Source of the DNA: Lewinella sp. W8 | GTDB lineage: Bacteria > Bacteroidota > Bacteroidia > Chitinophagales > Saprospiraceae | Assembly (NCBI RefSeq): GCF_004375085.3 | Contig: NZ_SNAQ03000010.1 | Location: forward strand, 124,001 to 188,000 | Length of the DNA: 64,000 bases | Reading direction: 5' to 3' | In this document: one piece after another, positions 42,851 to 57,863 of the stretch | Layout: each line of letters opens with the position of its first letter | Position numbering within the stretch: position 1 is the first letter of the stretch | Notes under the pieces: generated by a model | Seen by the model: the letters and a program-made list of their open reading frames with translations, nothing else | Database searches by the model: none | What the model was told of the DNA's origin: nothing | Translations under genes and position numbers: made by a program

Positions 42851-44173
42851 ATGAACCTACCCCTTTATCTGGCCCGCGGAGTTGCCCGGGGCGGCACCCA
42901 GTCCATCTCCCGTACGATCATCGGCATCGCCGTAGCGGCGGTTACTATTTCCATGGCTACGATGGTCCTGGCCAGCGCCCTGGTGAATGGGTTCAAATCA
43001 GAAATCTCCACCAAGATTTTTGGCTTCTGGGGCCACATCCACATTACGGCGGATGCGGCGAGCTACGGCATCCTGGATACCTACAATTTTCCCATTTCTA
43101 AGGACCAGGATTTTTACCCCAGCCTGGATACGACGGGCCGGGTGACACTGGAGGGTTTTGGCTCCAGCCTGGGGCTGGATGCCGCCGAGCCCCAAACCAG
43201 TAAGGCGGGGATCAAACACATCCAGCAGTTCATCGTCATGCCGGGAGTCGTGTCCGTTTACCAACCCGGTGAACGCCTGCCCACCCAGGAAGCCCTGATT
43301 CTCAAGGGCATCGCCGAAGACTACGACTGGGACAGCTTCGGCCGCTACCTGGTGGACGGAGAGATTCTGCGCGTGGACCCCGACTCCACCAGCCGGGGGA
43401 TCGTCATCAGCAGCATCACCGCCGACCGCCTACAGCTGGCCCTCGGTGACCGCATGGACTTCGCCTGGCTGAACCAGCGGGGTGAAAGCCGGGTACGGGC
43501 ATTTCAGGTGACGGGAATCTATAAAACGGGACTGGAAGAATATGACCGGCAGTTTGCCCTCGTGGACATCAAACAACCCCGGGCACTGCTGGGCTGGCGT
43601 GACGATCAGATCGGTGGGTTCGAGGTAGTACTGGATGATATTGCGGACCTGGAACTCTTTTCCGAGTACATCCACTACGAGGTGTTGCCCCAGGACCTGT
43701 ACGGTGAGAGCCTACGGAAAAAGGTCAGTGAGTTGTTCAACTGGCTCGATATCCAGGACTACAACTTTGCGATCATCCTCGCCCTGATGGTCATCGTGGC
43801 CATCATCAACATGATGACGGCGCTCCTCATCCTCATCCTCGAGCGCACCAACATGATTGGTACCCTGAAGGCGCTGGGGCAGAGCAACTGGAGCATCCGT
43901 CGAATCTTTCTGTATTACGCGGCCTTCATCATTGGCTTCGGCCTGCTGCTGGGCAACGGCATCGGCCTGTTGCTGTGTTGGGTACAGGACACCTTTGGCG
44001 TCGTCCGCCTCGACGAAGCCTCCTATTATTTATCCGTCGCGCCGATTGCCATCAACTGGTGGACGGTACTGGCCATCAACCTCGGCACCTTCCTCATCAC
44101 CCTCCTCTTTCTCGTCATTCCGAGCTATCTGGTGACCCGCATCGAGCCGGTCCGGGCCATCAGGTTCAAATAA
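42851..44173 (+). CDS. FtsX-type/LolE-like ABC transporter permease
   Basis: A 440-residue protein with the MacB/FtsX/LolE layout. The first transmembrane segment (ISRTIIGIAVAAVTISMATM, about 20-40) is followed by a large periplasmic domain (about 50-300) and three C-terminal transmembrane segments: FAIILALMVIVAIINMMTAL, IFLYYAAFIIGFGLLLGNGI and WTVLAINLGTFLITLLFLVI. The conserved LERTNMIGTLKALGQSNWSI loop is the ATPase-contact segment. LolE-type permeases extract lipoproteins from the inner membrane; the partner ATPase is not adjacent. The gene ends about 70 bases before the repeat array. Confidence 0.88.
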   Translation: MNLPLYLARGVARGGTQSISRTIIGIAVAAVTISMATMVLASALVNGFKSEISTKIFGFWGHIHITADAASYGILDTYNFPISKDQDFYPSLDTTGRVTLEGFGSSLGLDAAEPQTSKAGIKHIQQFIVMPGVVSVYQPGERLPTQEALILKGIAEDYDWDSFGRYLVDGEILRVDPDSTSRGIVISSITADRLQLALGDRMDFAWLNQRGESRVRAFQVTGIYKTGLEEYDRQFALVDIKQPRALLGWRDDQIGGFEVVLDDIADLELFSEYIHYEVLPQDLYGESLRKKVSELFNWLDIQDYNFAIILALMVIVAIINMMTALLILILERTNMIGTLKALGQSNWSIRRIFLYYAAFIIGFGLLLGNGIGLLLCWVQDTFGVVRLDEASYYLSVAPIAINWWTVLAINLGTFLITLLFLVIPSYLVTRIEPVRAIRFK

Positions 44174-44241
44174 TTCCGGATCAGCCTTTGGGCCCGGCGG
44201 GCAGGTGCACGGCTTTTTTGAGAAGAGCAAAGTATTCTGGT

Positions 44242-44540
44242 GTCGCCTTTTGCCGAAAGGCGACCGGGAAATGTATGAGGCGAGATGCGGTTATTGCGCC
44301 TGGCCCGAAGACTCTGGGTGCTGGGGATATTTGAATCTTTAGTTGTGTGCGGGTATGGTTTCCTTTCGGCGAAAGGAAACACCAGCTGGTGTCGCCTTTT
44401 CCCAAAAGGCGACCGGGTGATGTTCCTTCTGTTGGCAGATTTTGGCTAAGTGTACCTGGGCCTGAATTTCGAGGTCTTTGAATTTCTCCTGATGCGGATG
44501 TGGTTTCCTTCCGGGGAAAGAAAACACCAGTTGGTGTCGC
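44242..44540 (+). repeat. REP-like double-hairpin array, left part (before the RAYT gene)
   Basis: Two hairpin types alternate. Type A has arms GTTTCCTTTC and GAAAGGAAAC; type B has arms GTCGCCTTTT and AAAAGGCGAC. Here: B1 44242-44264, linker L1 to 44357, A1 44358-44380 with B2 44391-44413, linker L2 to 44501, A2 44502-44524, and then half a B hairpin that stops at about 44540 where AT-rich DNA carrying the transposase gene begins. A and B are joined by CACCAGCTGGTG-like palindromic bases. The array begins about 70 bases after the FtsX-like stop codon. Confidence 0.85.
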
Positions 44541-44656
44541 TTAAAATTTAATAATTTAGGTTCAGAGCTAGGTATTTGTTTACGGGCATTTCTTTAGGCC
44601 GTTGGAAATCAATAATTTGTGAGGCTTACTTTTTATTCACCTATCGGACCCTAATT

Positions 44657-45286
44657 ATGAGACAGTTTAAAAACCATGACATCACCCGTGATCCAGTACA
44701 CGTGATTTATCGATTGGAGAATAGCATTCCACGACAAAATTTGATTAGGCTTAGGGAAGCATACCAACAAAACTTACTTCAATTGGAAATAGGTGATAAT
44801 TCTTTTCAAGACCAATATTCTCAACCTCCAATGGACAAGGAGTCTAGGTTGCAAGAAGAATTTCAATTAAGGTACGATCAGGAATTGCACACCATTAATC
44901 AAGGGCCGCATTTATTAGCGAATTTAGAGATCAAAAGAATCATTATTGACGATTGGATTCATTTTCAATCAAAGGGGGTTTTGGAAATTTATGCTATCTC
45001 CGTAATGTCTAATCACGTCCATGTTCTCTTAGCTAGTTGTAATCCTTGGGAAAGAATCGATTTCAAAAAATTTATGGCGTCTAGAAAGAGGTTTACGGCA
45101 AGGAAAATAAACCAGGTTCTTAAGCGGAGGGGGAAACTTTGGGCAAGGACCTCTTTTGACCGTACTTGTAGAAAAAATCAATTTGGGACAGTGTTTAACT
45201 ATGTTATCAATAACCCCTTGAAGGCTGGACTTACTAATGACCCTATCTCTTGGAAAGGAAATTATATAAATCCGAATTTCTTATAG
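44657..45286 (+). CDS. REP-associated tyrosine transposase (RAYT, IS200/Y1-like HUH family)
   Basis: A 209-residue protein from ATG 44657; a TTG at 44576 would add 27 unlikely residues. The HUH motif is H120-V-H122 in SVMSNHVHVLL. The catalytic tyrosine is Y182 in FNYVINNPLKAGL, aligning with the Tyr of E. coli TnpA-REP (DYIYINPVKHG) by recall. The first ~100 residues include a charged insertion longer than in compact RAYTs. HUH enzymes nick and rejoin single-stranded DNA at hairpins. The gene is clearly more AT-rich than its surroundings, suggesting transfer. It lies inside the hairpin array, between A2 and A3. All catalytic residues are intact. Confidence 0.88.
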   Translation: MRQFKNHDITRDPVHVIYRLENSIPRQNLIRLREAYQQNLLQLEIGDNSFQDQYSQPPMDKESRLQEEFQLRYDQELHTINQGPHLLANLEIKRIIIDDWIHFQSKGVLEIYAISVMSNHVHVLLASCNPWERIDFKKFMASRKRFTARKINQVLKRRGKLWARTSFDRTCRKNQFGTVFNYVINNPLKAGLTNDPISWKGNYINPNFL

Positions 45287-45312
45287 GTTTTCCCATGCTC
45301 AGTGCGGGCGTG

Positions 45313-47065
45313 GTTTCCTTTCGGGGAAAGGAAACACCAGGGTGGAGTCGCCTTTCGCCGAAAGGCGACCAGGTGATGTATTCTTTTGAGGGAGATTTTG
45401 GCTAGGTGTGCCTGGGCCTGAATTTCGAGGTCTTTGAATTACTCCTGATGCGGGTGTGGTTTCCTTTCGGGGGAAAGGAAACACCAGGGTGGTGTCGTCT
45501 TTTCCCAAAAGGCGACCGGGAAAAGTATGAGGCGAGATGCGGTTATTGCGCCTGGCCCAAAGACTCTGGGTGCTGGGGATATTTGAATCTTTAGTTGTGT
45601 GCTGGCGTGGTTTCCTTTCGGGCTTGCCCGACTGGCGAGACGGGGAAAGGAAACACCAGGGTGGTGTCGCCTTTCGCCCAAAGGCGACCGGGTGATGTAT
45701 TCTTTTGAGGGAGATTTTGGCTAGGTGTGCCTGGGCCTGAATTTCGAGGTCTTTGAATTACTCCTGATGCGGGTGTGGTTTCCTTTCGGGGGAAAGGAAA
45801 CACCAGGGTGGTGTCGTCTTTTCCCCAAAGGCGACCGGGAAAAGTATGAGGCTAGATGCGGTTATTGCGCCCGGCCCGAAGACTCTGGATGCTGGGAATA
45901 TTTGAATCTTTAGTTGTGTGCTGGCGTGGTTTCCTTTTGGCGAAAGGAAACACCAGGGTGGTGTCGCCTTTCGCCCAAAGGCGTCCGGGAAATATATGAG
46001 GCTAGATGCGGTTATTGCGCCCGGCCCGAAGACTCTGGATGCTGGGAATATTTGAATCTTTAGTTGTGTGCTGGCGTGGTTTCCTTTTGGCGAAAGAAAA
46101 CACCAGTTGGTGTCGTCTTTTCCCAAAAGGCGACCGGGGAATGTATGAGGCTAGATGCGGTTATTGCGCCTGGCCCGAAGACTCTGGGTGCTGGGGATAT
46201 TTGAATCTTTAGTTGTGTGCTGGCGTGGTTTCCTTTCGGGGAAAGGAAACACCAGGGTGGTGTCGCCTTTTCCCAAAAGGCGACCAGGAAATGTATGAGG
46301 CTAGATGCGGTTATTGCGCCCGGCCCGAAGACTCTGGATGCTGGGATGTTTGAATCTTTAGTTGTGTGCGGGTGTGGTTTCCTTTCGGGGAAGAAAACAC
46401 CAGTTGGTGTCGCCTTTTCCCAAAAGGCGACCGGGAAATGTATGAGGCGAGATGCGGTTATTGCGCCTGGCCCGAAGACTCTGGGTGCTGGGGATACTTG
46501 AATCTTTAGTTGTGTGCGGGCGTGGTTTCCTTTCGGGGAAAGGAAACACCAGGGTGGTGTCGCCTTTTCCCAAAAGGCGACCGGGTGATGTATTCTTTTG
46601 AGGGAGATTTTGGCTAGGTGTGCCTAGGCCTGAATTTCGAGGTCTTTGAATTACTCCTGATGCGGGTGTGGTTTCCTTTCGGGGGAAAGGAAACACCAGG
46701 GTGGTGTCGTCTTTTCCCAAAAGGCGACCGGGAAAAGTATGAGGCGAGATGCGGTTATTGCGCCTGGCCCGAAGACTCTGGGTGCTGGGGATATTTGAAT
46801 CTTTAATTGTGTGCGGGCATGGTTTCCTTTCGGCGAAAGGAAACACCAGGGTGGAGTCGCCTTTTCCCAAAAGGCGACCGGGTGATGTATTCTTTTGAGG
46901 GAGATTTTGGCTAGGTGTGCCTGGGCCTGAATTTCGAGGTCTTTGAATTACTCCTGATGCGGGCGTGGTTTCCTTTCGGCGAAAGGAAACACCAGCTGGT
47001 GTCGCCTTTTGCCAAAAGGCGACCGGGAAATGTATGAGGCGAGACGCTGAAAGAAAACACCAGTT
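45313..47065 (+). repeat. REP-like double-hairpin array, right part (12 A-B units)
   Basis: A starts: 45313, 45459, 45609, 45778, 45929, 46079, 46228, 46377, 46525, 46671, 46822 and 46968; each is followed 10-12 bases later by a B hairpin (last B 47001-47023). The period is 146 bases when the next linker is type L2 and 148-151 when it is L1. Linker order after B3 to B14: L2, L1, L2, L1, L1, L1, L1, L1, L2, L1, L2, partial L1. L1 and L2 share their beginnings (GGG-ATGTAT), CCTGG-CC-GAA, TTTGAAT and the GCGGG-GTGG end, so they are diverged relatives. The A5 loop (45609-45653) carries 22 extra bases. A partial A arm remains at 47049-47065, directly against the desaturase stop codon. Confidence 0.9.
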
Positions 47066-47068
47066 CCG

Positions 47069-47833
47069 TTACCGCTTCTCCGTAACCCGCTCAAACCGAT
47101 CTTTATACTTTTTGCTTTCGGTGCCCATCCACTCGTCCCAGTAGGTGAAGTAGAGCCCGAAGTTGGTGCGGGCCTGTTTATGGTGCAGGTCGTGGTGGGT
47201 CGCTCCGATCAGACGGCGGAGCAGCGGGATTTTGCTCCAGGAGGCCGGGAAGACTTCGACGCCGGCGTGATTGATGGTGGCCGACAGGGTCATCAGAGCC
47301 AGGAGAAATAGAAAAATGAACGTCTGGATCGGTAGCACCAGAATAATGAGGGGGATGTAGATGGCCTGAATGATGGCTTCCAGGGGGTGAAAACTAAAGG
47401 CCGTGAAGGCGGTCGTTTCAATGCTTTCGTGGTGCCAGGCGTGCACTCGCTCGTAGATGCCGGGCAGGTGCATCCACCGGTGTGTCCAGTAGTAGTAGGT
47501 TTCCTGTAGGGCAAGAAAGAGCAGGGGGGAAAGCGGGAGCCAAATCCAGTGATGTTCCCCGGGATCGAGGTAAAGGCGGGTGTGGCCACGCTGCCACAAC
47601 CAGAGCGTGGCGATACCCGCCACGGCAAAAACCACCGAAACTCCGGCGGCGCGAATAATCTCTTTCCGCATGATCGTCTGCCCGGCGGGACGGTCGTGAA
47701 AAATGCGTTGTTGCAGTCGGTCTTTCCAGTGCCGCCGGAACAGGTAATGATAAGCGCCGCTGAAGAGCAGGTAGCGAACAAAAATGATCGCGAACAGCAA
47801 ACAACTCCAGAGAATGAAATCAGCGGTGGTCAT
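47069..47833 (-). CDS. Sterol desaturase / fatty acid hydroxylase family protein
   Basis: A 254-residue membrane di-iron enzyme with about four hydrophobic segments. The histidine clusters are HRWMH (about 117-121), HAWHH (about 130-134) and HHDLHH (about 214-219), which bind the iron pair. WLWQRGHTRLYLDPGEHHWI and SATINHAGVEVFPASW add family signature. Such enzymes hydroxylate or desaturate sterols, carotenoids or fatty acids; the substrate is not deducible. The likely promoter at 48005-48012 would give a leader of ~165 bases with a 125-bp inverted repeat. The 3' end abuts the REP-like array. Confidence 0.9.
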   Translation of the reverse strand: MTTADFILWSCLLFAIIFVRYLLFSGAYHYLFRRHWKDRLQQRIFHDRPAGQTIMRKEIIRAAGVSVVFAVAGIATLWLWQRGHTRLYLDPGEHHWIWLPLSPLLFLALQETYYYWTHRWMHLPGIYERVHAWHHESIETTAFTAFSFHPLEAIIQAIYIPLIILVLPIQTFIFLFLLALMTLSATINHAGVEVFPASWSKIPLLRRLIGATHHDLHHKQARTNFGLYFTYWDEWMGTESKKYKDRFERVTEKR

Positions 47834-47857: not shown

Positions 47858-47982
47858 CTACACTGCTAGACAAAGGATTGTTTCGGTTCCTCTCCAGCGT
47901 AGCGAAATGGAGAGCCCGCCCGGCCTGACTGCCAGTCGGACGGGGTTAGGAGAGGGAGAAACACATTTGTCTAGCAGTGTAG
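47858..47982. mobile_element. MITE-like 125-bp element with 17-bp terminal inverted repeats
   Basis: The ends CTACACTGCTAGACAAA (47858-47874) and TTTGTCTAGCAGTGTAG (47966-47982) are perfect inverted repeats. Inside, GTTTC and CCTCTCC face GGAGAGGG and GAAAC, and a small hairpin (CTCTCCA with TGGAGAG) lies in the left half. No coding frame. The central part (GCCCGGCCTGACTGCCAGTC) resembles the 22 extra bases in hairpin A5 of the nearby array. It lies between the desaturase start and its likely promoter. Confidence 0.65.
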
Positions 47983-51002: not shown

Positions 51003-54000
51003 ATGAAATCTTTGTTTTTTGTCTTTACCCTGGCGCTTTGTGGATTTTACCTCTGTGGACAGGAAGCTCCTGCTGAATTAATCCCCACCGCAAAAATTGT
51101 CACGTCCGGAAACACGGTCCCCGAAAAGGTACCTTGTTCGGGGGGGACGTTGATGATCACCGGAATTAATGTAGAAAACGGTGGCAACGGAGATAATAAT
51201 CCCGCTAATGGAGCCTTCATGAGCTGGACGGCCTCGGGAAGCAGTACGGGGCTTTACTACTCCATCATTATTGATCCTAACGGCATGGTATGGACCATCG
51301 TGCAGGGGGGGACCAGCAACAGCGTTTTTCCCGCCGATGGCAGCGGTAATTTATCGACGAACCTTACGGTCGGCGCCCCGGGCGCCGGCTCGGGCGACTG
51401 CCTCCCCGCGGGAGATTACGTACTGCAGGTATGGGAAGTCGAGGATAACAATTCGGACAACCTGCCGGACATTGACGGGGTCACCGGAGACACGCTGGGA
51501 TGCTACGTGCGGGGAGTATTTACCTTCAATCCCTCCTGCCCGTCCCCCACCACGGTCACCGCCACGGCCAACGTAACCAATATTGGCTGTGTTAGTCCAA
51601 CCGGAAGCATCACCCTGGAAAACTTCGTAACCAGTAGCCTTTACTGTGTGGAATCCAACGGCGCCGGCGCAACGGTTACCTGGACCGGCCCCGGGGGCTA
51701 CACCGGCAGCGGCACCTCGATCTCCGGCCTGGCGGCCGGGACCTACACGGCCACCATATCGGATGCCTACGGCTGCCCGACAACCGTATCGGCAACGGTC
51801 ACCTCCGCCCCGCCGGTGGCCATCTCCTGTTCGGTCATCCGCAGCCCGACGGTATTCGGCGGCTCCGACGGCGCCGCCCGGGTAACGATCAACGCCGGCT
51901 CCGGCGACTACACCATCTCCTGGACCGGCGAGACCTCGGGCAGCCGCACCGGATTCGACGGCTCCAATACTGTCCCCAACCTGCCGGCCGGAACCTACAC
52001 CTTCACCGTAACCGATAATGGGTCCGGCTGTACGGACATGTGTACGGTGACCATTCCCGACCCACCCTGTGAGGTAGACTTCGTGGTGGAGTACACCATG
52101 TTCGGGGATATCTTCATCCGTATCCTCAACGGTACGCCGGACTTTTATGTGAATTATACAGGAGACACCTTTTCGCCTTCCGATTACGGTCCCTTCGGTA
52201 ACGAAGGTTACACGATTCCCGGGTCCGAATTTGTGCCGGGCGACTATATATTCACGGTCTTCGAAGCGGGCCGCACCGACTGTCAGGACGTAGAGTTTTT
52301 TACCATCGCCGGACCGGACTGTACGGATCTGATGCTCACCAACGAAGACTCCACCAACCCGAGTTGTAGCGACGTGGATGACGGCACCATCACCGTTGAA
52401 TTTACGGGGCTGGACAATCCCGTCATCAGCTGGAACGGCCCGGGCGTAACCGGGTCCAACGCCACCACCATTTCGGGCCTCGGGGCGGGGACCTACAGCT
52501 ACCAGATCATTGACGACGAAGGATGTTTCCTCGACGGCAGCTACACCCTGACGGCACCGCCCGCCCTCACCCTGAGCTGCGACGGGATTAACGAAACCCG
52601 CGACGCACTGGACGACGGGATGATCGCCCTCGACGTGGGCGGAGGAACGCCCGGTTACCGCCTCAGCTATACCGCTACGGACGATATGGGGATGCCGCTT
52701 CCGCCGGTGACCAACCAGGCCATTACGGCCATCGATACGCTGCGGAATCTGGTGGCCGGAACTTACCAGATCACCATCACCGACGATGCTGGCTGTACGA
52801 TCGATTGTACCACCACGATCACCCAGCCCAACTGTGACCTCTTCCCGGATTGTGTGCCCACCGATGCGTCCGTCATCGGCGGAACCGGTTCCGTGGAGCT
52901 GACCTTTGACGGGACGCCGGACTGGACGGTAACCATCACCGGGCCGGTGGACACCTCCTTCGTTACCTCCAATACCACGGAAGTCATCAATGATTTGCCT
53001 CAGGGTGATTATGACCTGGACGTATACAATGACGCCGGATGCGTCGGCGTCTGCAATTTCACCATTGCCGGCCCCAGCTGTGGCATTATGGTGGGGACGG
53101 ACTTCATGAACCCCTCCTGTCCGGGAGGAGATGACGGCGCCATCTTCCTGGATATTTCCGGACAGGGTGCCGGCCTGACCATTGACTGGGATGATGATAT
53201 TTACGACGGACAAGACACCCTCCGCGGCCTGGAGGCCGGGACCTACTCGGTGATCGTCAGCGACGCCACGGGTTGTGTTTTGGCACCCCTTGATTTCACG
53301 CTGGTGGACCCCGATAGCCTGCGGGCGACGATGAGTATTGATACCGAAATCAGCTGCGCGGGAGACAGCACCGGCGGAATTTCCGTTTCCGTGGTGAACG
53401 CCACCCCTCCGCTGTCCTACGCCTGGTCCGTGGATAGCCTGCCAGATGCTCCGGCGGTTGGGGGACTGATTATCGGGACCTACTCCGTAACCGTTACCGA
53501 CGCCAATGGCTGTACGGTCATCGCTGATACCTCCCTGACGGAACCGCCGGCCTTAATGCTGAGCTGCGGAAGTGTGGCGGAATCCACCATTGGGGCCGAC
53601 GACGGACGGGTAGGATTTGATCTGTCCGGGGGAACCATGCCCTACGTCATGCAGCTTAATGGCACCACCGTCACGCCCCCGGCGGACGATACCTTCCGGA
53701 TGCTAATGCCCGGGCAGTACATCATCGACGTCGTGGACGCCAACGGATGTACGGCGAGCTGTACCGCCGTGGTGAATGCGGGAGGTTGTGGAGACTTCAC
53801 GGTAGCCATCACGGAAACCCAGCCCGACTGCAACAGTGCCACCGGGAGTGCCACCGCCACGGGAATGATGGGCAACGGGATGATAACCTACCAGTGGGAC
53901 AACGGAGCCACGACGGCTACCGTCACGAACCTCGTTCCGGGAACCTACGAAGTGCTGGCCACGGACGCCGCCGGCTGTACGGCCGTCGATCAGGTAACCA

Positions 54001-57000
54001 TTGTCGCCTTCACGGACATCCCTTCGGTGGCGGTGGGCAGCTTCAGCACCGTCTGTGACGATGCATGCTCCGAAATCACCCTCACTTTTGCGGGCACGCC
54101 GCCCTTTACGGTGGACTATGAAATAGATCGCGGCGGAACGCAGGTGCCGGGCCAGTTGACGACGAGCAGTGTTGGCGACACCACCTTCACTTTCTGTCCC
54201 GCCGATTTTGGTTTCCCCGATCTGGGAAATAATAGTGTAGTAGGTTTCGCAACGGTTACGGACGGAAATGGCTGTAGTCGTCCGGTCGATCAGCTGGAAG
54301 CGATCCCGGCACAGCAAACCCAAACGGGAACCTACTCGGAGACCCGGTGCGAGGGGGATACCCTGCGGTACTTTGGCGAAGAGTTTTTTGCCGCCCGTAC
54401 CACGGGAGACGTTACCCTGCCCTTCCCCGCAGCCAACGGCTGCGATAGCGTCGTCACCGTCACCCTGAATTTCTTCGCTCCGGCCACGGGCACCTACGCC
54501 GAAACGATTTGCGAAGGGGATACCCTGACGTACCAGGGCGAAATCTTCCACGCCCTGCGGACTACGGGCGACGTGGTGATCCCGGATGCCTCGGCTAACG
54601 GCTGTGACTCGACGGTTACGGTGACGGTCGACTTTTTCGCACCGGCCACGGGCACCTACGCCGAAACGATCTGCGAAGGAGATACCCTGACCTTCCAGGG
54701 CGAAATCTTCCACGCCATGCGCACGACGGGCGACGTGGTGCTCCCGGACGCCTCGGCCAACGGCTGTGACTCTACGGTCACGGTGACGGTCGACTTCTTC
54801 GCACCGGCCACGGGCACCTACGCCGAAACGATCTGCGAAGGAGATACCCTGACGTACCGGGGAGAGATTTTCCACGCGCTGCGCACGACGGGCGACGTGG
54901 TGCTCCCGGACGCCTCGGCCAATGGCTGTGATTCCACGGTCACGGTTACGATTGATTTCTTCGCGCCGGCCACGGGTACCTACGCCGAAACGATCTGCGA
55001 AGGAGACACCTTGACGTACCAGGGAGAGATTTTCCACGCGCTGCGCACGACGGGCGACGTGGTGCTCCCGGACGCCTCGGCCAACGGCTGTGATTCGACG
55101 GTCACGGTGACGGTCGACTTTTTCGCTCCGGCCACGGGCACTTACGCCGAAACGATCTGCGCGGGGGACACCCTGACGTACCAGGGAGAGATTTTCCACG
55201 CGCTGCGCACGACGGGCGACGTCGTTCTCCCGGATGCCTCGGCCAATGGCTGTGACTCAACGGTTACGGTGACGGTCGACTTTTTCGCTCCGGCCACGGG
55301 CACTTACGCCGAAACGATCTGCGAAGGGGACACCCTGACGTACCAGGGCGAAATCTTCCACGCCATGCGGACTACGGGCGACGTCGTGATCCCGGACGCC
55401 TCGGCCAACGGCTGTGACTCAACGGTCACGGTGACGGTCGACTTCTTCGCTCCGGCCACGGGCACCTACGCCGAAACGATCTGCACGGGGGATACCCTGA
55501 CGTACCAGGGAGAGATTTTCCACGCGCTGCGCACGACGAGCGACGTGGTGATTCCGGACGCCTCGGCCAACGGCTGTGACTCCACGGTCACGGTGACGGT
55601 TGACTTTTTCGCTCCGGCTACGGGCACCTACGCCGAAACGATCTGCGAAGGAGACACCCTGACCTTCCAGGGCGAGATCTTCCACGCTATGCGCACGACG
55701 GGCGACGTGGTTCTCCCAGATGCCTCAGCCAACGGCTGTGACTCGACGGTCACGGTAATGGTCGACTTCTTCGCGCCCGCTACGGGCACCTACGCCGAAA
55801 CGATCTGCGCGGGGGATACCCTGACGTACCAGGGAGAGATTTTCCACGCGTTGCGCACGACGGGCGACGTGGTGATTCCGGACGCCTCAGCCAACGGCTG
55901 TGACTCGACGGTCACGGTAATGGTCGACTTCTTCGCGCCCGCTACGGGCACCTACGCCGAAACGATCTGCGCGGGGGATACCCTGACGTACCAGGGCGAG
56001 ATCTTCCACGCTATGCGGACGACGGGCGACGTGGTGATTCCGGACGCCTCGACCAACGGCTGTGACTCTACGGTCACGGTCACGATCGACTTTTTCGCTC
56101 CGGCCACGGGCACCTACGCCGAAACGATTTGCGAAGGGGATACCCTGACGTACCAGGGAGAAATCTTCCACGCCATGCGGACCATTGGCGACGTCGTTCT
56201 CCCGGATGCCTCGGTCAACGGCTGTGACTCCACGGTCACGGTTTCCATTGATTTCTTTGCACCTGCGGTGAGCGCCTTCAATACCACCATATGTCTTAGC
56301 GATACTTTCCGGTTAAACGGAGAAATCTTTGATGCGAACCGGACCAGCGGTGACGTAATCTTCCCCGATGCTTCCATTAACGGCTGTGACTCCACGGTCG
56401 CCGTCACGATTGACTTTTTCCCCCAGGCGGTAGGCTCGTTTGATACCACCATTTGTGCGGGAGGCTCCTTCACGTACGGTGGACAGGTATTTGACGAGGC
56501 GGTGGATCAATTTTTTGTCACGCTGCCACAACCCAGTAGCAATGGCTGCGATAGTGTAGTGGCCGTTTCCGTGACAGTGGAACAACTCCCGAACATCAGC
56601 CTGAGTGGTGACGGGATCATTTGTCCGGACGGAGACGTGAGCATTACCCTGGAGTACGACGGAAGCGTTCCGGCCACCGTATTCCTGAGTTCTGACCCCG
56701 GAGAGGCCATTACGGTCCCCGTGGGAGGAACTACTATTCAGCGCACGATTGCTGCGGGCACCGCCGTAAGTATCCTCAGTGCGACCACCGCTTCGGGCTG
56801 TCCGCCCAACTTCACGGGTGACCTGCTCGTTACGGAAACCGATCTGGCGGTGGGCATTGACATCATGAGCGGCGACGGCATCTTTGCCGTCAGTTGTGCC
56901 GAAGGCAGTGACGGCGTGGTGCAGGCCGTCGTTTCCGGGGGTAGTGCACCCTACGAATACACCTGGAGCACCGGAAGCCAGGAGGTCATGGTAGAGGGAC

Positions 57001-57863
57001 TGCCGGCGGGGGATTACTCTCTGATGGTTACCAGCAGCCGCGGTTGCCAACGGGAGGCCTCCATTACGTTGAACAGCCCCGAAATTCTTGCCGTCTCCAT
57101 CAATGAGGTCCCGGCTAACTGCGTGGATACACTGCCGGTGCTGGTAGTCCAGGATATTCAGGGAGGTGTGGCCCCCTACGTGTTTGGTACGGCCGCTGGG
57201 GCCCTGTCGCCGGCGGGTGGCTTCCCGGATTCGCTCCGACTCCCGGTCGGGGAAAGCACCTTTGTATTGGAAGACGTCAACGGCTGCGTGCTGTCGCAAA
57301 ACTTCACCTTCGACCCCGCTCCCCGGGGAGAGCTGGTGGTTACGCCCGCTCAGTCCATCATTCGGCTTGGGGATAGCGTGGCGCTTTCGGTGCTGACCGA
57401 CCTGAATACCGACGGTTTCCTGATCAGTCCCGGTCCGGAAGAACTGATTTCGGGTGCGGAGGTCTTCGTGGCTCCCCAGACGTCCACGACCTACACGTTT
57501 ACGGCCATTGATCCGGAAGGGTGTTCGGCCACCGCCACGGCGAAGGTCATCGTGGATCGATTCGTGCCGATCTACGCTCCGACGGCCTTTAGTCCGAACC
57601 TCGATGGCACCAATGACCTTTACCGGGTCTTTGCCAACGACCAGGTGCGGGAGATCTCCGACTTTTTCATCTTCGACCGTTGGGGGGAGAACGTATTCAC
57701 TTTCCCCGGTCCGGTCGGGCCCAATGACGTCAACTGGGGATGGGACGGTACGGCGGCCGATGGCCGCCTCTACGAACAGGGCACCTACGTCTTCAGCGTT
57801 AAGGTTACCCTGCTGGACGGCCGGGAAATTACCCTGAAGGGGGACTTCGTGCTCATGCGATAA
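51003..57863 (+). CDS. Giant secreted adhesin with SprB-like repeats and gliding-motility C-terminal domain
   Basis: A 2286-residue protein with signal peptide MKSLFFVFTLALCGFYLCGQ. Residues about 190-1110 hold SprB/PKD-like repeats (ISGLAAGTYTATISDAYGCP, LRGLEAGTYSVIVSDATGC, IIGTYSVTVTDANGC). Residues 1157-1750 are 11 head-to-tail copies of a 54-residue unit. Diverged copies flank both sides. The end (about 2190-2286: FVPIYAPTAFSPNLDGTNDL, ISDFFIFDRWGENVF, GTYVFSVKVTLLDGREITLK) is the gliding-motility-associated C-terminal (CHU_C-type) domain that serves as a type B T9SS sorting signal. It is probably a surface adhesin. No sprC/D/F genes follow; a porP/sprF-like gene lies 3.7 kb downstream. 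Confidence 0.92.
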   Translation: MKSLFFVFTLALCGFYLCGQEAPAELIPTAKIVTSGNTVPEKVPCSGGTLMITGINVENGGNGDNNPANGAFMSWTASGSSTGLYYSIIIDPNGMVWTIVQGGTSNSVFPADGSGNLSTNLTVGAPGAGSGDCLPAGDYVLQVWEVEDNNSDNLPDIDGVTGDTLGCYVRGVFTFNPSCPSPTTVTATANVTNIGCVSPTGSITLENFVTSSLYCVESNGAGATVTWTGPGGYTGSGTSISGLAAGTYTATISDAYGCPTTVSATVTSAPPVAISCSVIRSPTVFGGSDGAARVTINAGSGDYTISWTGETSGSRTGFDGSNTVPNLPAGTYTFTVTDNGSGCTDMCTVTIPDPPCEVDFVVEYTMFGDIFIRILNGTPDFYVNYTGDTFSPSDYGPFGNEGYTIPGSEFVPGDYIFTVFEAGRTDCQDVEFFTIAGPDCTDLMLTNEDSTNPSCSDVDDGTITVEFTGLDNPVISWNGPGVTGSNATTISGLGAGTYSYQIIDDEGCFLDGSYTLTAPPALTLSCDGINETRDALDDGMIALDVGGGTPGYRLSYTATDDMGMPLPPVTNQAITAIDTLRNLVAGTYQITITDDAGCTIDCTTTITQPNCDLFPDCVPTDASVIGGTGSVELTFDGTPDWTVTITGPVDTSFVTSNTTEVINDLPQGDYDLDVYNDAGCVGVCNFTIAGPSCGIMVGTDFMNPSCPGGDDGAIFLDISGQGAGLTIDWDDDIYDGQDTLRGLEAGTYSVIVSDATGCVLAPLDFTLVDPDSLRATMSIDTEISCAGDSTGGISVSVVNATPPLSYAWSVDSLPDAPAVGGLIIGTYSVTVTDANGCTVIADTSLTEPPALMLSCGSVAESTIGADDGRVGFDLSGGTMPYVMQLNGTTVTPPADDTFRMLMPGQYIIDVVDANGCTASCTAVVNAGGCGDFTVAITETQPDCNSATGSATATGMMGNGMITYQWDNGATTATVTNLVPGTYEVLATDAAGCTAVDQVTIVAFTDIPSVAVGSFSTVCDDACSEITLTFAGTPPFTVDYEIDRGGTQVPGQLTTSSVGDTTFTFCPADFGFPDLGNNSVVGFATVTDGNGCSRPVDQLEAIPAQQTQTGTYSETRCEGDTLRYFGEEFFAARTTGDVTLPFPAANGCDSVVTVTLNFFAPATGTYAETICEGDTLTYQGEIFHALRTTGDVVIPDASANGCDSTVTVTVDFFAPATGTYAETICEGDTLTFQGEIFHAMRTTGDVVLPDASANGCDSTVTVTVDFFAPATGTYAETICEGDTLTYRGEIFHALRTTGDVVLPDASANGCDSTVTVTIDFFAPATGTYAETICEGDTLTYQGEIFHALRTTGDVVLPDASANGCDSTVTVTVDFFAPATGTYAETICAGDTLTYQGEIFHALRTTGDVVLPDASANGCDSTVTVTVDFFAPATGTYAETICEGDTLTYQGEIFHAMRTTGDVVIPDASANGCDSTVTVTVDFFAPATGTYAETICTGDTLTYQGEIFHALRTTSDVVIPDASANGCDSTVTVTVDFFAPATGTYAETICEGDTLTFQGEIFHAMRTTGDVVLPDASANGCDSTVTVMVDFFAPATGTYAETICAGDTLTYQGEIFHALRTTGDVVIPDASANGCDSTVTVMVDFFAPATGTYAETICAGDTLTYQGEIFHAMRTTGDVVIPDASTNGCDSTVTVTIDFFAPATGTYAETICEGDTLTYQGEIFHAMRTIGDVVLPDASVNGCDSTVTVSIDFFAPAVSAFNTTICLSDTFRLNGEIFDANRTSGDVIFPDASINGCDSTVAVTIDFFPQAVGSFDTTICAGGSFTYGGQVFDEAVDQFFVTLPQPSSNGCDSVVAVSVTVEQLPNISLSGDGIICPDGDVSITLEYDGSVPATVFLSSDPGEAITVPVGGTTIQRTIAAGTAVSILSATTASGCPPNFTGDLLVTETDLAVGIDIMSGDGIFAVSCAEGSDGVVQAVVSGGSAPYEYTWSTGSQEVMVEGLPAGDYSLMVTSSRGCQREASITLNSPEILAVSINEVPANCVDTLPVLVVQDIQGGVAPYVFGTAAGALSPAGGFPDSLRLPVGESTFVLEDVNGCVLSQNFTFDPAPRGELVVTPAQSIIRLGDSVALSVLTDLNTDGFLISPGPEELISGAEVFVAPQTSTTYTFTAIDPEGCSATATAKVIVDRFVPIYAPTAFSPNLDGTNDLYRVFANDQVREISDFFIFDRWGENVFTFPGPVGPNDVNWGWDGTAADGRLYEQGTYVFSVKVTLLDGREITLKGDFVLMR
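54471..56252 (+). repeat. Eleven tandem 162-bp (54-residue) repeats in the adhesin
   Basis: Exactly 11 x 162 bases. The unit begins FFAPATGTYAETIC and contains GDTLTYQGEIFHALRTTGDV and DASANGCDSTVTVTVDF, with two conserved Cys per unit. Variable positions include E/A/T after ETIC, Y/F in TLTY, L/M in HAL and I/L in VVI. Many differences between copies are synonymous. Less similar copies flank the block (54318-54470 and 56253 onward). Confidence 0.95.

Follow-up and report, generated by a model that had tools for sequence, protein, structure and literature searches.

REPtrons, and BIMEs lying beside REP-associated transposases (RAYTs, or TnpA-REP), are described in several reports, taken together here as far as their available text goes (PMC6006769, PMC2817692, PMC3116915, PMC3733652, PMC8266576, PMC12306157). 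The yafM gene of Escherichia coli is flanked by BIME-2 on both sides, and one third of RAYTs have BIMEs beside them (PMC2817692). In Pseudomonas fluorescens SBW25, three RAYTs each have one REPIN cluster next to them (PMC3116915). REPs are concentrated near some RAYTs, which have been taken as recent arrivals (PMC2817692, PMC8266576), and the hairpins of the Bacteroidetes subclass 2.6 are reported to lack GT[AG]G (PMC6006769). A REPtron with an adjoining BIME array is a kind of locus known from gammaproteobacteria.

Here we describe such a locus from Lewinella sp. W8, located in a window of 64,000 nucleotides, which is the whole stretch of DNA that was analysed. It is very probably a REPtron, a RAYT/TnpA-REP gene embedded in tandemly arrayed BIMEs of the REP family that belongs to it, and the array would be mainly a by-product and reservoir of REPINs. 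The identity as a REPtron with a large BIME array is well supported; the mechanism by which the array was amplified is what we infer. The sequence basis for this reading is that a single REP family alternates in orientation, that its stems covary, that the head is TGG(T/A)G almost throughout, that an open HUH/Y1 gene occupies a unit, and that the REP was not found in 20 congeners. The locus is ordinary in kind, and it is notable for its size, its lineage, its head sequence and for being one of many in its genus. The array exceeds the maximum given for P. fluorescens in the available text of PMC3116915, its head is not GT[AG]G, and its host is a marine member of the Bacteroidota. The array and its neighbours are arranged as follows.

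42851-44173, + strand: flanking FtsX/LolCE-like ABC transporter permease gene, stop 63 bp upstream of the array
44237-47063, no strand assigned: whole tandem array (BIME array/REPtron), 15 unit positions of REP, linker and inverted REP
44237-44384, + strand: unit 1, type-2 linker; REP 44238-44265 (+), inverted REP 44357-44384 (-)
44386-44530, + strand: unit 2, type-1 linker
44531-45340, + strand: unit 3, transposase gene in the place of the linker
44531-44540: left REP of unit 3, head and first stem bases only
44657-45286, + strand: REP-associated Y1 (HUH/tyrosine) transposase, 209 aa; HUH motif NHVH, tyrosine motif YVINNP
45312-45339: inverted REP of unit 3, whole, on the right side
45342-45487, + strand: unit 4, type-1 linker
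45489-45660, + strand: unit 5, type-2 linker; 22-nt loop insert in the inverted REP (hairpin 45610-45654)
45661-45806, + strand: unit 6, type-1 linker, 98% identical to unit 4
45808-46552, + strand: units 7-11, consecutive type-2 linkers
46554-46699, + strand: unit 12, type-1 linker
46701-46849, + strand: unit 13, type-2 linker
46851-46995, + strand: unit 14, type-1 linker
46996-47063, + strand: unit 15, with an internal deletion that leaves a whole REP, the start of a type-2 linker and the inverted REP's right arm
47069-47833, - strand: fatty-acid-hydroxylase family gene, convergent flank, end 5 bp beyond the array

The array is 2.8 kb long; of its REP hairpins, 28 are full and 2 truncated. 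The first-pass annotation had counted about 14 double-hairpin units of A and B; indeed, 14 hairpins each of A and B, of which some contain one or two mispaired positions, run in register from 44242 to 47023, but the unit positions number 15. One of these positions is occupied by the transposase gene, with a truncated left REP, and the last one is internally deleted. The phase A-B-linker that had been assigned to the unit has to be replaced: the outer ends of the array, CTGGTGT at the start (44237) and ACACCAG at the stop (47063), lie at REP heads, so that the unit reads B-linker-A, a REP-linker-inverted REP, i.e., a BIME/REPIN. The units begin with CTGGTG, TTGGTG, GTGGTG or GTGGAG and end with ACACCAG. 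Other features of that annotation were borne out, namely the position between convergent genes, two kinds of linker, and a period of 146 or 148-151, for which we measured 145-151 and 168 for the unit with the 22-nt loop insert. TRF gave periods of 297 bp and 150 bp. Type-1 linkers occur in units 2, 4, 6, 12 and 14, and type-2 linkers in units 1, 5, 7-11, 13 and the truncated 15. The two types bear a weak similarity to each other beyond chance, equalled by 2 of 1000 mononucleotide shuffles for the whole linker and by 10 of 1000 for its core. The window contains 16 perfect stems that reach at least 10 bp and have loops of 3-4 nt, all 16 within the array, and the same search gave 0 or 1 per window in 20 Markov-1 control windows.

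Could the number of units have been altered by repeat collapse or expansion during assembly? The genome is a draft of 91 contigs, but many positions vary between the units, their loops differ and one has a 22-nt insert, and the array lies inside a contig of 222,792 bases with unique genes on both sides, which makes an artefact hardly credible.

The REP is 28 nt long and comprises a TGGT head, a 10-bp stem and a 3-nt loop. Hairpins A and B had been regarded as two hairpin types. Reverse-complemented, A can be aligned with B without a gap, and thus, as judged from the sequence, A and B are a single REP in alternating orientation, the consensus forms differing at three compensated base pairs. We rejected a pairing between the GGG-containing A loops and the CCC-containing B loops as a special device, because this complementarity is explained by A and B being inverted copies of one REP. 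The foot, or head, TGG(T/A)G is near-constant at the unit ends and present in nearly all REP rows. The REP does not show the 5' GT[AG]G at the hairpin foot that defines the GTAG REP superfamily, almost every row carrying TGG(T/A) there. One form of the REP has its loop enlarged by about 22 bases (GGGCTTGCCCGACTGGCGAGACGGG-like); it is seen in the array at 45610-45654 and also occurs at the unlinked loci L026, L093, L095, L096 and L103.

Covariation, which the first-pass annotation had proposed as a check, supports the view that the REP stem is kept by compensation. Doubly changed cells numbered 23 against 7.7 in shuffled alignments for a set of 61 REPs (25 distinct rows), and 39 of 400 against 11.0 for a set of 60 REPs with more dispersed copies (40 distinct rows), none of 500 shuffles being as high in either case; part of this signal is the single A/B split, and the rows were partly pre-filtered, as the collection kept only hairpins with at least 8 of 10 pairs, which favours pairing in the 61-REP set and in most of the 60-REP set. 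The unfiltered part of the latter came from a later search without the 8/10 pairing criterion. Paired cells made up 96.0% of the 60-REP set and 37-59% of slid control alignments. When the middle arms were left free (three bases per arm free in the pattern, no pairing filter), 28 of 33 positions in 11 distinct arm pairs were Watson-Crick against 14.0 in shuffled arms, with 0 of 10000 shuffles as high; the input was 27 distinct sequences from 72 zero-mismatch pattern matches, 24 one-mismatch ones being omitted. Pairs with a double change showed no clear excess (254 of 500 shuffles as high in the 61-REP set, 71 of 500 in the 60-REP set), nor did the number of pair types (485 of 500 and 109 of 500, respectively). 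The 61-REP set omits 17 entries that read the same palindromes from the reverse strand, as well as five array A hairpins of deviating loop or stem length (45, 24, 24, 24 and 22 nt). The 60-REP set omits repeated identical dispersed copies and five hits (the second of L093, both of L095, that of L096 and the first of L103), four with 3-5 pairs, mostly expanded-loop forms. The compensation pointed out earlier in the stem of the third B hairpin, where CTTTCGCC pairs with a GAAAGG arm, is real.

The transposase gene encodes 209 aa from an ATG start and 236 aa from a TTG start, the latter being the version searched. It matches Pfam Y1_Tnp (1.8e-07) and scores 60.5 bits against the REP transposase model NF047646 of NCBIfam, under the cut-off of 80. 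A 20-row alignment shows no variation in the HUH motif and at least 90% conservation of the tyrosine; in a 39-row alignment, H122 and Y182 are invariant and H120 is at least 90% conserved. A Foldseek search of the PDB with the AlphaFold2 model (pLDDT 93.3) returned 4er8, the E. coli RAYT on a REP hairpin, as the top match, although the match is moderate (E 1.7e-06, TM 0.49/0.60, rmsd 10.7, 14% identity). The PDB search by sequence found only five IS200-type chains, weakly. The conserved residues and the top fold match thus identify a RAYT with HUH and catalytic tyrosine, as expected of a REPtron, in agreement with the link to REPs and the resident transposase suggested in the first-pass annotation. 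The motifs were compared with those of RAYT subclasses at the motif level only. On the right side of the gene the REP is whole, and on the left it is cut to the head and the first stem bases; therefore, the REP-gene-REP frame is incomplete on that side. This truncated left REP, the head other than GT[AG]G, the sub-cut-off score with NF047646 and the moderate match to 4er8 all count against the reading as a REPtron. The own genome encodes five further Y1 proteins with 30-37% identity to the transposase. We rejected the low GC content of the gene (37%) as proof of recent transfer, as 43 of 45 RAYT genes, including this one, are GC-poorer than their flanks. Over these 45 loci (45 of 54 used, among L031-L064 and L106-L119), the genes were poorer by a median of 0.10.

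Like the E. coli REPtron (tnpA-REP/yafM, BIME-2), the Lewinella locus has a Y1 gene amid alternating REPs on both sides, and there are two versions of the REP, Y and Z2 in E. coli and A and B in Lewinella. Unlike the E. coli REPtron, to which the available text of PMC6006769 ascribes three REPINs, it has its 28 full REP hairpins at one locus, its head is TGGT and not GTAG, its stems are mostly perfect without the AA-GC bulge of E. coli REPs (PMC8266576, available text), and the left REP next to the gene is truncated. The tandem REP-doublet clusters next to each of the three cognate RAYTs in SBW25, with an own REP per RAYT, are also similar, whereas the largest of them consists of four REPINs and one REP over 700 bp (PMC3116915, available text), compared with 15 unit positions over 2.8 kb and a gene inside. 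The Bacteroidota TnpA-Y1 subclasses 2.4/2.6 (RAYT groups 4/5) share the lineage and the NHVH and NNP motifs near the tyrosine, and the flanking hairpins of subclass 2.6 lack GT[AG]G, as does the Lewinella REP. Tandem arrays such as the one in Lewinella are not mentioned for these subclasses in the available text of PMC6006769. IS200/IS605 insertion sequences share the HUH/Y1 fold and the hairpin ends, but in Lewinella a single transposase copy lies amid many non-coding units and the genome has no other above 37% identity.

By analogy with the enzymes of E. coli, Stenotrophomonas and Marinomonas (PMC8266576, available text), the transposase would act on the REP folded in single-stranded DNA, cut nearby and rejoin the ends. 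It may occasionally mobilise REP-linker-inverted-REP units, and such mobilisation, combined with recombination or slippage among units that are nearly identical, could lengthen the array beside the gene. In that case the array would be mainly a by-product that stores non-autonomous REPINs and is tolerated where two convergent genes leave a gap.

Alternatively, the BIME array may owe its amplification to recombination by the host or to slippage during replication, the transposase being a passenger that has ceased to act on the array; we consider this possible but rather unlikely. This would agree with the 297-bp dimer period, the 95-98% identity of the type-1 units 4, 6, 12 and 14 (unit 2, 85-88%), the run of five consecutive type-2 units, and a 5-unit array on contig C33, on which no match to the transposase was found. 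Growth by host recombination alone may indeed account for the array, as the near-identical 297-bp dimers fit equally well. Against a passenger gene, arrays concentrate at the RAYT genes of the genus (31/54 versus 0/40, see below), and the array is bounded by REP heads at both ends, though recombination between REPs would preserve this as well.

The first-pass annotation had described a single-locus array and had stated that many dispersed copies would support a REP/BIME family. The REP turned out to be dispersed: a covariance model trained on own-genome copies found at least 106 matches in the own genome, 28 of them in the array, with 150 of 6215 candidates scored. They represent at least 105 distinct hairpins, at least 77 of which lie outside the array, a number that is 77 and not 78 because one C33 hairpin was matched on both strands. 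The REP pattern with up to 1 mismatch matched 96 times in the own genome and 0 times in the 20 congener genomes, with 0 matches of the reversed-pattern control in the own genome and 1 in the congener genome G004. With the covariance model, the 20 congener genomes likewise gave 0 matches at E up to 0.01 among the 150 candidates scored per genome. The family thus has the conserved 5' head, the inverted pairs and the many dispersed genome copies that characterise REPs and BIMEs. Besides the 5-unit array on C33, there is a short array of this REP on C4, and the linkers of these arrays are other or diverged. Among the own-genome 3-kb REP loci, 12 of 17 had no ORF of at least 120 aa over the REP and 5 had one (mechanical ORFs, no annotation).

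Long-linker units are nearly confined to the main array, and about 15 dispersed REP pairs form the middle of a different nested inverted-repeat element of about 0.5 kb with its own ends, which probably spread them. Hence, the dispersal of the REP is due only partly, if at all, to the transposase. The nested element measures about 0.5-0.6 kb and has TAGGCTGTTCCGTGA at its outer ends and GTAGCGGCA... at its inner ones, with one REP pair centrally; its approximately 15 copies lie at L020:1168-1772, L025:1171-1799 and about 13 further places in the own genome.

The dispersed copies (at least 106 matches) refute the single-locus form of another explanation, according to which the double hairpins are a new system peculiar to this locus and not related to REPs. 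The regularity of the array, its long conserved linkers and the head other than GT[AG]G would suit such a system, but the hairpins are one REP in inverted orientation, the transposase has the RAYT fold, and the same architecture recurs with other sequences at other RAYTs. We give this explanation next to no credence.

RAYT matches were found in 20 of the 21 genus genomes. TRF arrays (period at least 30, length at least 100, within about 1.5 kb to either side of the RAYT gene, irrespective of coding status) were present at 31 of 54 genus RAYT loci and in 0 of 40 control stretches 20-40 kb away (Fisher p 1.8e-10), two of the controls lying about 40 kb and the others about 20 kb away. The 54 loci include the own locus and three cut by contig ends, and cover 55 of 62 RAYT matches, the seven omitted ones having E 5e-13 or weaker. 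Tandem arrays of locus-specific units are thus often found at RAYT loci of the genus, and the description of the array as unusual, on the grounds that REPs are dispersed, is not supported; tandem BIMEs beside the cognate transposase are known (PMC2817692, PMC3116915, available text). Repeated hairpins occurred at 17 of 54 RAYT loci and 2 of 40 controls. The unit sequences differ among the RAYT loci, and by eye, several of the loci listed have two hairpins sharing an inverted head, such as GGAC at L037 and GTAG at L121 and L125. The nearest RAYT, with 50% identity (L037), sits among unrelated hairpins headed GGAC. The 20 congeners have 0 REP matches and no RAYT above this identity; only one genome carries both the REP and its cognate RAYT.

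Beyond Lewinella/Neolewinella, arrays were found at 16 of 44 RAYT loci, although two of the 16 look like coding repeats by our reading and one of the 44, L184 (no array), actually belongs to the genus set. In the same survey, the Lewinella/Neolewinella group had arrays at 22 of 36 loci, which overlap the 54-locus set and are not independent of it, and 1 of 70 distal controls, shorter than the RAYT flanks, had an array. Our search of the open-access literature, as far as the available text goes, found no description of RAYT arrays in Lewinella-type bacteria. It is conceivable, if unlikely, that in Lewinella-type Bacteroidota a tandem array of its own REP is a usual home of a RAYT and the gene one cargo among others, linker and gene being interchangeable, that the head changes quickly together with the transposase, and that the array is an actively turned-over product of the RAYT, or a sink limiting its action elsewhere. 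For the question of how REPs multiply and why RAYTs persist, a genus with arrays at more than half of the RAYT loci examined offers many natural pairs for testing the recognition of head and stem beyond the GTAG systems of Proteobacteria. The permease gene was not found in the flanks (up to 1.5 kb) of 20 other hydroxylase loci, 12 of them with 59-68% identity to the hydroxylase; these flanks are too short to reach the permease even at the own locus, where the array intervenes, and thus no empty site can be read from them.

The array fills the gap between the convergent genes, 63 bp and 5 bp from their stops, and in E. coli, REPs reportedly make mRNA more stable and terminate transcription (PMC6006769, available text). 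The array might accordingly act mainly as RNA, its hairpins ending or protecting the 3' ends of both convergent transcripts. We consider this very unlikely, since one hairpin would suffice, the REP is also found at many other loci, and the promoter and terminator scan was near chance, with 8 terminator-like sites against 5.4 (sd 2.0) in shuffled sequence. Rfam also returned no match, whether the window was searched at the gathering threshold or 44100-47200 at E up to 1, and a known RNA family was rejected on the same grounds.

Two further repeats were seen in the window. One, at 47858-47982, is 125 bp long and has perfect inverted ends of 17 bp (CTACACTGCTAGACAAA); elsewhere in the genome there are two further near full-length copies of it and several part copies. 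At 54471-56242, about eleven 162-bp tandem repeats lie inside an open frame of 2286 aa (51003-57863), whose C-terminus resembles that of a secretion-sorted surface protein.
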